Assembly: GCF_003121485.1 (NCBI RefSeq)
Contig: NZ_QAVX01000020.1
Coordinates: 1 to 64,000, forward strand
Direction of reading: 5' to 3'
Source: Dyella sp. C11
Lineage (GTDB): Bacteria; Pseudomonadota; Gammaproteobacteria; Xanthomonadales; Rhodanobacteraceae
DNA length: 64,000 bases
Positions 22,291-24,553 of this stretch are shown piece by piece. Numbering within the stretch: the first letter of the stretch is position 1; each line of letters starts with the position of its first letter. The notes beneath the pieces were generated by a model. The model searched no databases and was not told the DNA's origin. It saw only the letters and a list, made by a program, of their open reading frames with translations. Both the position numbers and the translations under genes were made by a program.

Positions 22291-23385
22291 TCAGCAACCG
22301 GAGGCCTTGCGCACGGCACTGGTTGCCTGTCGCGCGGCGCGGCGTGCGCGCACGGCGTGGGCAAGGCTTTCAAGCGCGGCAACTGACGTGGCCCAGTCGA
22401 TGCAGCCATCGGTGATGCTTTGGCCGTAACGCAGCGGCTGTCCTTCCACCAGGTCCTGCTTGCCGCCGACGAGATGGCTTTCCACCATCACGCCGACGAT
22501 GCGATGTTCACCGGCCGACAGCTGCATGGCGATGTCGTTGCTGACGAGCGGCTGGTTCTCCGGCTGCTTGTTGCTGTTGGCGTGGCTGGCATCGATCATT
22601 ACGCGCGCAGGCTGGCCGCCCTTGGCAATCGCCGTGCACGCGGCGTCCACGTTGGCGGCATCGTAGTTGGGCGTTTTGCCGCCACGCAGGATGACGTGGC
22701 AATCCTCGTTGCCCGTCGTAGCCGCAATGGCCGTCTGGCCATCCTTGGTCACGGCCATGAAATGATGCGGCTGCGAAGCGGCATTCACGGCATCCACGGC
22801 GATCTTGACGTTGCCATCCGTACCGTTCTTGAAGCCGACCGGGCAGGACAGCCCCGAGGCCAGTTCGCGATGCACCTGGCTTTCCGTGGTGCGCGCACCA
22901 ATGGCGCCCCAGGCCACGAGATCCGCGATGTATTGCGGCGTGATCATGTCCAGGAACTCGCAGCCGGCCGGCATGCCCATTTCGTTGATGTCGCGCAGCA
23001 AGCCGCGCGCCATGCGCAGACCCTTGTCGATGCGGAAACTGCCATCGAGATCGGGATCGTTGATCAGCCCTTTCCAACCCACCGTGGTGCGGGGCTTTTC
23101 AAAATACACGCGCATCACGATCTCCAGCTCACCCGCATGCTGCTTGCGCAACGCCACGAGCCGTTCGGCGTATTCCAGCGCGGCCCTGGTGTCGTGGATG
23201 GAACAGGGGCCGATGACAACGGCCAGCCGGTCGTCATCGCCGCTGAGAATGCGATGCAGGGCCTGTCGCGATGCGCTGACCGTGTGCATCGCATGCACGC
23301 TGGCCGCGCTCTCGCGCATCACCTCGGCCGGCGTGCTGAGTGGCGTGATGGCGCGGATGCGTAAATCGTCGGTGGAAGGGTTCAC
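22291..23385 (-). CDS. aroG: 3-deoxy-7-phosphoheptulonate (DAHP) synthase, type I
   Basis: First enzyme of the shikimate pathway: PEP + erythrose-4-phosphate to DAHP. 364 aa, GTG start 6 nt after AAGGAG. Class I-alpha blocks: VVIGPCSIHD, RVYFEKPRTTVGWKGLINDP, GARTTESQVHRELASGLSCPVGFKNGTDG, DASHANSNKQ. Which amino acid inhibits it allosterically cannot be called with confidence. Expression is very likely controlled by the leader peptide and terminator directly upstream (23420-23556). Confidence 0.95.
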   Translation of the reverse strand: MNPSTDDLRIRAITPLSTPAEVMRESAASVHAMHTVSASRQALHRILSGDDDRLAVVIGPCSIHDTRAALEYAERLVALRKQHAGELEIVMRVYFEKPRTTVGWKGLINDPDLDGSFRIDKGLRMARGLLRDINEMGMPAGCEFLDMITPQYIADLVAWGAIGARTTESQVHRELASGLSCPVGFKNGTDGNVKIAVDAVNAASQPHHFMAVTKDGQTAIAATTGNEDCHVILRGGKTPNYDAANVDAACTAIAKGGQPARVMIDASHANSNKQPENQPLVSNDIAMQLSAGEHRIVGVMVESHLVGGKQDLVEGQPLRYGQSITDGCIDWATSVAALESLAHAVRARRAARQATSAVRKASGC

Positions 23386-23419
23386 GAGAAGCTCCTTGGA
23401 GTTTCCACTCGCGGCCCAT

Positions 23420-23453
23420 AAAAAAGGCCGCCAGTGGTGGCTGGCGGCCTTTT
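23420..23453 (-). terminator. aroG attenuator terminator
   Basis: On the - strand: GGCCGCCAG, loop CCACCA, CTGGCGGCC, then TTTTTT. The 9-bp stem pairs + positions 23441-23449 with 23426-23434. It sits between the leader-peptide stop and the aroG ribosome-binding site, so read-through decides aroG expression. Its 5' arm can instead pair with CTGGCGG inside the leader ORF (23496-23502). Confidence 0.9.
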
Positions 23454-23472
23454 GGGAATGGTGTCTTGTCGT

Positions 23473-23556
23473 TTAGGACAATCGCGACCAACCCTCCGCC
23501 AGCGGCATCGGATAGCCGTAAAACCAAAAATACTGGCGGGCGGGAGTGAAGGTCAT
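23473..23556 (-). CDS. Aromatic-rich leader peptide of aroG
   Basis: A 27-residue ORF, MTFTPARQYFWFYGYPMPL..., stop TAA 19 nt before the terminator hairpin. Residues 9-15 (YFWFYGY) contain six aromatic codons for Tyr, Phe and Trp, and a further Trp is residue 23. The same 7-mer pair is used four times: CCGCCAG over codons 6-8 (23533-23539), CTGGCGG over codons 19-21 (23496-23502), CCGCCAG and CTGGCGG as the two terminator arms. Ribosome stalling on the aromatic run would free segment 2 to pair with segment 3 and prevent termination. Start codon choice is tentative; an in-frame ATG at 23589 adds 11 residues. Confidence 0.85.
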   Translation of the reverse strand: MTFTPARQYFWFYGYPMPLAEGWSRLS

Positions 23557-23629
23557 GGCGACAAGGAATAACACAGGCTTTTGGCGCATGCAAAGGATGC
23601 ATTTGTAACCAAGCGCTACACTCACACGC

Positions 23630-24553
23630 ATGCCGTCACCCTTGAGCCTTCTCACCCGCCCTGCCCGCGAGCCCATCCGACGATGGGTATTGAGCGCGTT
23701 TCCGCGCGGCGGCGGCGGGCATGTCGACTACGACCATCCGGTGGGCGATCCAGGTTTGTTTGGCCCCGACAGCGCCACCTGGCGCGTGCACGCCGACTTT
23801 CCCGGCATGCTCGCGGGCGGCTTGGCGGCGCTGATGCTCCAGACGCTGCATCCGCGCGCGCTGGCGGGCGTATGGGATCACTCCAATTTCCGCGAAGACC
23901 TGATCGGCCGCCTGCGCCGCACGACGTCGTTCGTGAGCGGCACCACGTACGCACCGGCCGGCGAAGCAGCGAAGTTGATCGAACGCGTGAAGCATATCCA
24001 TGCACAGGTGCAGGGCGTGGACGAAGATGGACGTCCATACGTGGCAGACGATCCGGAACTGCTGACATGGGTGCATGTCACCGAAGCCTATAGCTTCCTG
24101 CAGGGCTATCGGCGCTACAGCCACATCAACCTGCCGGGCGGCGCGGCAGATCGTTATTACGATGAGGCGCGCCGCGTTGCGGAGGCGCTCGGCGCTCGCG
24201 ATGTTCCCGCCTCGGAATCACAGATCACGGCCTATTTTCGTCGTGTGCGTCCGCAGCTGCACTTCGGTGAGCGTTCACGCGCGGTGCTTGATGTGCTTTA
24301 TCGCGTGCGACTGCCCGTACCGGTGGCCGGGCTTTCCCGGGATGTCTTTCTTCAGGCGGGCGCGGCGTTGCTGCCACCCTGGGCGGATGCATTGCTGGAA
24401 CGAACGCCGCTGCAACGAGCGCAGTCGCGTCTTGCAGCGCGGGCCTTGTGGTCGGTATCGCCCGTATTCCGCATGGCCTTGCACGACGGCATCGCCAGCC
24501 GCGCCTGCATGCGAGTCGGTGTTTCAGCCGACACGCTGCTGCATTGGCGCTAA
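23630..24553 (+). CDS. DUF2236 / MpaB-type oxygenase family protein
   Basis: 307 aa, all-alpha. Family blocks: DSATWRVHADFPGMLAGGLAALMLQTLHPRALAGV, WDHSNFREDLIGRLRRT and VTEAYSFLQGYRRY. The Arg and His residues in these helices bind b-type haem in the rubber oxygenase Lcp and mycophenolate oxygenase MpaB relatives. The bacterial house-keeping members have no known substrate. It is divergent from aroG and converges on the VOC gene. Confidence 0.82.
   Translation: MPSPLSLLTRPAREPIRRWVLSAFPRGGGGHVDYDHPVGDPGLFGPDSATWRVHADFPGMLAGGLAALMLQTLHPRALAGVWDHSNFREDLIGRLRRTTSFVSGTTYAPAGEAAKLIERVKHIHAQVQGVDEDGRPYVADDPELLTWVHVTEAYSFLQGYRRYSHINLPGGAADRYYDEARRVAEALGARDVPASESQITAYFRRVRPQLHFGERSRAVLDVLYRVRLPVPVAGLSRDVFLQAGAALLPPWADALLERTPLQRAQSRLAARALWSVSPVFRMALHDGIASRACMRVGVSADTLLHWR

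Follow-up and report, generated by a model that had tools for sequence, protein, structure and literature searches.

A probable ribosome-mediated attenuator with Phe, Tyr and Trp control codons upstream of the DAHP synthase gene aroG in Dyella sp. C11 and its relatives

Introduction

Can a single leader RNA in front of one DAHP synthase gene respond to all three aromatic amino acids? In E. coli, three isozymes ruled by repressors and feedback catalyse the first step of the shikimate pathway, and the known attenuators Trp_leader and Phe_leader serve one amino acid each and precede trp or pheA genes. The question is raised by a stretch of 64,000 nt from Dyella sp. C11 (contig NZ_QAVX01000020.1, positions 1 to 64,000), referred to here as the window, for which a preliminary description proposed a complete ribosome-mediated attenuator before the DAHP synthase gene. 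In the following, the leader ORF, the RNA structures, the promoter and the distribution of this element are described, and the other explanations for it are weighed.

Results and discussion

The aroG locus and its leader region

The features of the locus are compiled in Table 1. The product of the DAHP synthase gene matched PF00793 (E 7.1e-96) and reached 528.6 bits against TIGR00034 (aroFGH; cut-off 173.2). Its score against the AroG-specific model NF006723 (549.5) was just under the cut-off of 568, so the gene name aroG is given by resemblance. The leader RNA of about 137 nt is located upstream of aroG, and its U-run ends 34 nt before the GTG start codon. Since the gene across from the leader, encoding an MPAB-type oxygenase (23630-24553, plus strand), is divergent, the terminator belongs to no upstream gene, and this possibility was ruled out.

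Table 1. Features of the aroG leader region of Dyella sp. C11 (positions in the window).
Feature	Position	Strand	Basis
-35-like element TTGCAT, 17 nt from the -10 hexamer	23588..23593	-	window position read by eye
Extended -10: TG (23573-23572), one base, TATTCC (23570-23565), then T	23565..23573	-	pattern score
Putative transcription start, A of the leader ATG, preceded by C	23556..23556	-	promoter spacing, C at -1
Leader ORF, 27 codons, MTFTPARQYFWFYGYPMPLAEGWSRLS*	23473..23556	-	ATG 23556, TAA 23475-23473; leader type kept in the family
Segment 1 (CCCGCCCGCCAG), both possible registers with segment 2	23533..23544	-	folds, arm-swap test
Control codons 9-15, Tyr Phe Trp Phe Tyr Gly Tyr (YFWFYGY)	23512..23532	-	W, F and Y each in 108/108 family leaders
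Segment 2 (CTGGCGG), within the leader ORF	23496..23502	-	GCGG invariant in 51-row alignment; pairs with 1 or 3
Stop-codon hairpin TTGTC-CTAAAC-GACAA, leader TAA in the loop, nested in the 2:3 antiterminator	23466..23481	-	folds, arm swap, shuffles
Segment 3 / terminator 5' arm (AAAAGGCCGCCAG)	23441..23453	-	folding
Segment 4 (CTGGCGGCC, 23434-23426) and U-run TTTTTT (23425-23420)	23420..23434	-	3:4 in 51/51 representative folds
Segment 5 (GGGCCGCGAGTGG), past the U-run, complementary to segment 4	23405..23417	-	duplex energy, swap test
Shine-Dalgarno sequence AAGGAG of aroG	23392..23397	-	read from sequence
aroG, type I DAHP synthase, 364 aa, GTG start	22291..23385	-	profile matches

A consensus scan of 23300-23800 returned neither promoter-like nor terminator-like sites. 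For the terminator we take this as a limit of that scan, as the hairpin is plain by folding. The only Rfam match at gathering score in the whole window was a fluoride riboswitch (RF01734, 41434-41517, plus strand; 36.4 bits, cut-off 34).

Besides AroG, the genome encodes a type II DAHP synthase (PF01474, 638 bits; G000:C14:22515-23816, minus strand; L232), at which the ORF scan showed no aromatic leader. Altogether, four other aromatic loci were scanned for such ORFs, comprising two chorismate-binding genes, a pheA-type gene (PF00800) and the type II DAHP synthase gene. Candidates were found at one of them only (L235), with five small ORFs containing WW and no further sign of an attenuator, and at none of the other three.

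The leader ORF and its control codons

AroG matches were obtained in 110 of the 233 genomes of the family (group f1). A weak 43% partial AroG match (G153) and a piece of 100 residues (G204) were dropped, and 109 upstream regions were used. The leader type was present in 108 of these, and all 108 carried a terminator with at least five T. Among 50 titled records with the core codons, 44 belonged to Dyella, Rhodanobacter or Fulvimonas. The single exception was G171 (L028), which was also the sole aroG in the samples of family and order without the attenuator. By eye, a sequence resembling the part after the terminator remains there, and it looks as if the leader was lost by deletion.

The leader ORF described earlier, with 27 codons and the run YFWFYGY at codons 9-15 on the minus strand, was recovered exactly, and the proposal that one stretch may sense Phe, Tyr and Trp together is supported by the leaders of the family. 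All three aromatic amino acids occurred within codons 6-16 in 108/108 leaders, with Trp invariant, Phe and Tyr constantly present and 4 to 7 aromatic codons per leader. For Tyr and Phe both synonymous triplets were found and the third bases varied, which indicates that the amino acid and not only the base is kept. T-ending codons were favoured: within codons 7-16, TTT occurred 170 times and TTC 41 times, compared to 108 and 422 in the reference ORFs of the window (picked mechanically, at least 600 nt), and TAT occurred 216 times and TAC 117 times, compared to 93 and 221. This preference may slow down decoding or serve to keep the RNA free of structure.

Conservation was also observed past the aromatic run, in a Gly-Tyr-Pro-x-Pro motif at codons 14-18 (window 23503-23517, minus strand; G in 88, Y in 91, P in 96 and the second P in 91 of 108 leaders). 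Codon sensing alone is insufficient as an explanation for this motif. A nascent-peptide arrest would account for it, in which FWFYGYPxP acts in the exit tunnel and senses a free aromatic molecule or the state of an elongation factor instead of charged tRNA. However, distant relatives keep the aromatic composition and not the exact peptide, with runs such as SYFWYFSYDSS, FYFYFFWHL and FFAFYFWF, and segment 2 together with a local hairpin CGGC/GCCG may account for part of the conservation downstream of the run. Peptide arrest is hence considered unlikely compared to a sensing of codons.

Alternative pairing of the leader RNA

In the order of the RNA, the leader comprises CCGCCAG, CTGGCGG, CCGCCAG and CTGGCGG. 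Sequence, folds and arm swaps agree with the preliminary description in that these four alternating segments allow the pairings 1:2, 2:3 and 3:4, that segment 1 precedes the aromatic run and segment 2 follows it, and that 3:4 forms an intrinsic terminator with T6 ending at 23420. The terminator stem comprises 13 pairs, four of which are A:U pairs with the U-run. Folded from the ATG, the RNA formed both 1:2 and 3:4, with a small hairpin between them that encloses the stop codon. The 155-nt region 23416-23570 reached -63.6 kcal/mol, compared to -42.7 (sd 3.8) for shuffles (z -5.6). Single-sequence folds of the 51 representatives without a ribosome contained 1:2 in 47 and 3:4 in all cases.

As a refinement, the repeat CCCGCCCGCC was found to permit two registers of 1:2. 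The register described before (nt 18-22 with 57-61) was paired in 232 of 255 cells and the alternative (nt 14-18 with 57-61) in 205 of 255. The alternative as the sole true register was dropped, since the other one pairs in more cells.

Co-variation of the arms was assessed by pairing the arms from one species with those of others less than 80% alike. The native combinations outperformed the swapped ones for 3:4 (mean gain 2.4 kcal/mol, p 1.5e-9), the stop-codon hairpin (1.5 kcal/mol, p 3.7e-5), 1:2 (1.9 kcal/mol, p 6.8e-5) and 2:3 (1.1 kcal/mol, p 1.2e-3), where all p-values are too small as the 51 representatives are mutually related. The control pairings 1:3 (p 0.22) and segment 1 with the stretch after the stop codon (p 0.95) showed no native advantage.

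The RNAalifold consensus contained the 3:4 terminator as the main structure and a short hairpin starting from the Trp codon, with 3 of 13 pairs doubly changed, while 1:2 was absent from this consensus fold. The prominence of the terminator would agree with an explanation in which only terminator and promoter matter, so that basal premature termination lowers aroG expression, a DNA-binding repressor exerts the control and the small ORF is incidental. Excerpts of PMC11802643 place the E. coli DAHP synthase genes under TyrR or TrpR control, which would also be in line with a repressor. Against this, an incidental ORF would not keep three aromatic amino acids in 108/108 leaders, and ORFs with an aromatic run recur in distant families (see below). 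This explanation is therefore very unlikely in comparison to attenuation.

The stop-codon hairpin and modelled ribosome positions

Between segments 2 and 3, at least four pairs enclose the leader stop codon in 105/105 distinct sequences, a number to be read against the 67% of shuffles which likewise give at least four. The number of enclosing pairs was more distinctive, with a mean of 10.6 compared to 5.6 for shuffles and higher native values in 50/51 cases. The energy of this region was only weakly under that of the shuffles (mean z -0.95; 14/105 below -2). The arms change together between species, from TTGTC/GACAA here to GATCG/CGATC, AAACCTT/AAGGTTT and CGACC/GGTCG elsewhere, and several leaders of a second family of the order showed CTGAAG-GAAA-CTTCAG around the stop codon by eye. 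Altogether, we lean towards a function of this hairpin. Because it is nested in 2:3, the antiterminator takes the shape of one long hairpin with an interruption, and the stop codon is located close to its tip.

Ribosome positions were modelled with assumed values for the edges of the ribosome. With RNA up to segment 3, stalls at codons 9, 11 and 13 gave 2:3 in 49, 51 and 51 of 51 sequences under a wide arm definition, and the 10 sequences scorable for codon 15 all gave 2:3. With the strict five-base core, 2:3 was present in 29-31 of 51 models for codons 9-13. When segment 4 was added, the minimum energy structure was 3:4, and 2:3 was kept in 2-4 of 51 (codons 9-14). Since 3:4 wins at minimum energy once segment 4 has been made, antitermination must be kinetic. 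Antitermination in trp attenuation is likewise kinetic.

With the modelled ribosome at the stop codon, segment 2 was located behind it in 44/51 sequences, 1:2 formed in 43/51 and 3:4 ahead of it in 51/51. These values bear on an issue of the preliminary description, which gave a distance of 20 nt from the end of segment 2 to the stop codon and left open how fully a terminating ribosome masks segment 2. The distance is correct, and from the models it is plausible that segment 2 would not be masked by the terminating ribosome but captured by segment 1, while the ribosome would open the tip of the antiterminator.

Segment 5

Segment 4 has a further possible pairing partner past the U-run, in a stretch such as GGCCGCC. 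The mean energy of the 4:5 duplex was -14.3 kcal/mol, compared to -9.2 kcal/mol for base-shuffled stretches, with lower native values in 47/51 cases. In the swap test, the native combination was better in 34/51 cases (p = 0.019). A function of segment 5 is possible, though we regard it as rather doubtful. If there is one, our guess would be that it holds the read-through RNA away from 3:4.

Promoter and a probably leaderless start

The first T of the -10 hexamer lies 14 nt before the leader ATG here and 13-14 nt before it in 99/108 family members. As the placement score rewarded TGnTAT(C/T) and a T after the hexamer, the counts of those are partly circular. In contrast, the two T columns 23 nt upstream and the C at -1 played no part in placing the promoter alignment. 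Aligned on the -10, the first two T of the -35-like element were found in 105 and 101 of 108 family members, and C preceded the leader in 99 of 106 distinct family upstream regions. By plain search, TGnTA was present 13-15 nt before the start in 18/18 leaders of two other families of the order, and C at -1 was found in 14 of these 18 and in 26/26 distant relatives. In the Burkholderiales-like leaders no such -10 was evident by eye. According to excerpts of PMC4842269, TGnTA is a motif reported upstream of leaderless mRNAs in Bradyrhizobium, as an extended -10.

The Shine-Dalgarno signal of the leader was small. At its start, the mean energy was -2.8 kcal/mol compared to -2.6 kcal/mol for shuffled sequences (one shuffle each), with 21/108 below -5 compared to 10/108. 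The aroG starts showed a mean of -6.6 and 91/108 below -5, a comparison which favours them as they were chosen as the in-frame start with the best Shine-Dalgarno sequence. Judged by promoter spacing and the C at -1, it is likely that the leader ORF is leaderless and the RNA starts at the A of its ATG.

The centroid fold also contained a long-range helix in which CTTGTCG, located before the ATG, pairs with CGACAAG past the stop codon. This helix was set aside as an RNA feature, because its 5' part lies in the putative promoter and differs in relatives (by eye).

Conservation in the order

A covariance model built from the 51 representatives was run on 398 genomes of the order, with an E-value of 6e-11 or better counted as a strong RNA match. 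A match at 1e-3 was obtained in 206 genomes, of which 141 reached the strong level and 65 had weaker matches only. Among 398 genomes of the order drawn likewise, 143 contained AroG (142 without G153), and the RNA was located directly upstream on the same strand in 141 of 142 aroG genes, 25-143 nt before the protein match (median 48). No strong match was found without aroG in this sample. Two weak matches that were read (8.7e-8 and 1.7e-6) were terminators without a leader and were discarded. The conservation check of leader and pairing arms upstream of aroG, which the preliminary description had named as decisive, thus turned out positive for both family (leader 108/109) and order (RNA 141/142).

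In two other families of the order, the leader was present at 18 of 20 fetched places, often of the type RFYFWYYGFPMPLAEEG, and missing at the two weakest. By eye, Trp was contained in 17 of these 18 leaders. Two variants were observed in the order: in L213 (G480) Gly replaces Trp, and in L220 (G491) the leader ends at a TAG inside segment 2.

The strict linkage to aroG also bears on the idea that the main product is a trans-acting small RNA or peptide, comparable to rnTrpL/peTrpL of S. meliloti, with attenuation being secondary. The probably leaderless, terminated RNA of about 137 nt with a conserved peptide does share the layout of S. meliloti trpL as given in excerpts of PMC7298713. However, all 141 strong RNA matches of the order lie directly before aroG, as expected for a cis element. 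A trans-acting product is compatible with attenuation and does not exclude it, but as the main function it is extremely unlikely, and a cis-acting attenuator is the preferred reading.

Distribution in the phylum

In the class, 36 of 274 genomes matched at 1e-3, only 3 of them strongly, and these were all members of the order. Of the 33 genomes with weak matches 17 were inspected. Two contained diverged leaders before a DAHP synthase gene (L195, MQSRNFFAFYFWF...; L196, MQTQRAYFFYFWF...), and 15 contained neither. For order and class together, 19 weak model matches were inspected, 17 without a leader of this type and 2 with one.

In the phylum, 32 of 349 genomes matched at 1e-6, 6 of which belonged to the order. 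The other 26, from outside the order, each showed an aromatic leader, a terminator and a DAHP synthase gene downstream (by protein search in L249 and L255). Trp was present in 22 of the 26 leaders by eye. The leaders L247, L252, L253 and L256 have no Trp codon and contain long Phe/Tyr runs. Which amino acids are sensed seems to differ from lineage to lineage. Going by leader type and genome size, we guess that the groups with the leader are Xanthomonadaceae, Rhizobiales and Burkholderiales.

A protein search in 319 genomes of the phylum gave 23 outside the order with AroG at E 1.1e-155 or better. The RNA was present in 20 of them and missing in G1073, G1024 and G811. Remoter AroG proteins mostly lacked the RNA as seen by the model, which misses diverged leaders.

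In the alphaproteobacterium Kaistia dalseonensis (L112, 1000..300, minus strand), the full device was found before aroG with a leader very similar to those of Rhodanobacteraceae. The partial AroG (161 aa) was at best 73.9% identical to alphaproteobacterial proteins, and 75.2% and 76.4% to proteins of the family. Being about equally close both ways, it would fit horizontal transfer as well as shared ancestry, and it was too short for the AroG tree of 31 rows. In this tree, AroG of family f4 (L281, G269), which belongs to the same order, grouped with f190/f192/f196 and not with f1/f2 (support 100/99, beside a long branch). This position suggests an exchange of aroG between lineages.

Taken together, the distribution would fit a proteobacteria-wide class of five-segment, largely leaderless attenuators attached to one AroG subfamily, acting as an OR gate for three amino acids, with the apical antiterminator hairpin holding the stop codon, which makes translation termination the off trigger, and moved or inherited with aroG across classes. 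This wider picture is tentative, and we hold it slightly less probable than its opposite.

Comparison with known systems

Like Trp_leader (RF00513) and Phe_leader (RF01859), the aroG leader combines a leader peptide, competing hairpins and an intrinsic terminator. Unlike in these, the leader ORF extends past segment 2 and has its stop codon within the antiterminator. The leader region scored 17.8 bits against Trp_leader (gathering cut-off 41) and 20.4 bits against Phe_leader (cut-off 55), far under the cut-offs, and a known Rfam leader was therefore ruled out. Rfam 15 gave no match at cut-off for the aroG leader. A T-box riboswitch was rejected likewise: the window contained no such match at gathering score, and a search of 23330-23630 with E-values of up to 10 gave none either.

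A close parallel by layout is the aroR-aroF attenuator of C. glutamicum (Neshat et al. 2014), as outlined in excerpts of PMC11802643 and PMC11525245. It is a ribosome-mediated attenuator with adjacent aromatic codons before a DAHP synthase gene, and its Phe-Tyr-Phe leader is reported to answer to Phe limitation and not to Tyr. In contrast to this system from a different phylum, the leaders of the Dyella family contain Trp together with Phe and Tyr (108/108). Excerpts of PMC8632094 mention an old attenuation hypothesis for E. coli aroF and describe the motif uORFC-13-1 of Acholeplasma, which is similarly a predicted upstream-ORF attenuator before aroF (DAHP synthase) with Phe codons. Compared by this description, it stems from a different phylum, has a ribosome binding site and contains at least one Phe codon. 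For the DAHP synthase-tyrA operon of Vibrio, a predicted upstream attenuator is known by its listing in the Merino database (PMC1173090, in excerpt).

A leader ORF at the 5' end of a terminated RNA is shared with trpL/rnTrpL of S. meliloti (excerpts of PMC7298713 and PMC10117765). There, a Trp leader of 14 aa precedes trpE, whereas for aroG the leaderless start is deduced from promoter spacing only. The text available from PMC7298713 reports leaderless leaders in S. meliloti, and such leaders are also described for S. lividans. In Ralstonia solanacearum, Phe represses aroG1 and aroG2, and aroG2 rises about 20-fold on deletion of aroG1 (PMC6379268, in excerpt), a behaviour that would fit attenuation.

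In the literature searched, whose reach did not include the 2004 survey of proteobacterial attenuators, no description of an aroG leader of this type was found. A prior prediction may exist, e.g. in that survey by Vitreschak et al. Attenuators of DAHP synthase genes are known elsewhere, and the aroG device is a variant with new features, namely the probably leaderless ORF, the stop-codon hairpin and segment 5. These features, like the missing Shine-Dalgarno sequence of the leader and the promoter directly next to its ATG, are additions to the preliminary description.

Proposed mechanism

The leader comprises a conserved ORF with codons for the products of the pathway, mutually exclusive pairings 1:2, 2:3 and 3:4, and a 3:4 terminator before the gene. 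By its sequence and predicted structure it belongs with the amino acid attenuators. The overall proposal of a complete attenuator in front of the DAHP synthase gene is borne out by sequence, conservation, co-evolution of the arms and folds, and we consider it highly probable that aroG is controlled by ribosome-mediated transcription attenuation via a three-way aromatic codon run, with a predicted response to starvation.

In the proposed mechanism, RNA polymerase would start on the leader ATG or no more than one or two bases away from it, and the ribosome would begin on the 5' end of the RNA without a Shine-Dalgarno sequence. A shortage of charged tRNA-Phe, tRNA-Tyr or tRNA-Trp would each stall the ribosome in codons 9-15, so that segment 1 is covered and segment 2 can pair with segment 3. 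The stop-codon hairpin would form inside this structure and may help to join both segments. The polymerase would then pass the U-run and transcribe aroG. If all three tRNAs are charged, the ribosome should reach the stop codon and break the stop-codon hairpin, and segment 2, located behind the terminating ribosome, would pair with segment 1, allowing 3:4 to form and transcription to stop. In read-through RNA, segment 5 may pair with segment 4 and thereby prevent refolding.

Conclusions

Where the shikimate pathway begins, a single RNA in front of a single gene appears to combine the response to all three of its end products. The locus provides a testable model of one codon run responding to several amino acids. 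Relatives offer a natural set of variants for this purpose, with and without Trp, with an early stop codon and with one apparent loss. Furthermore, the leader is a possible case of leaderless leader translation and of a stop codon serving as a structural switch element, and it could guide the engineering of aromatic production in non-enteric hosts.
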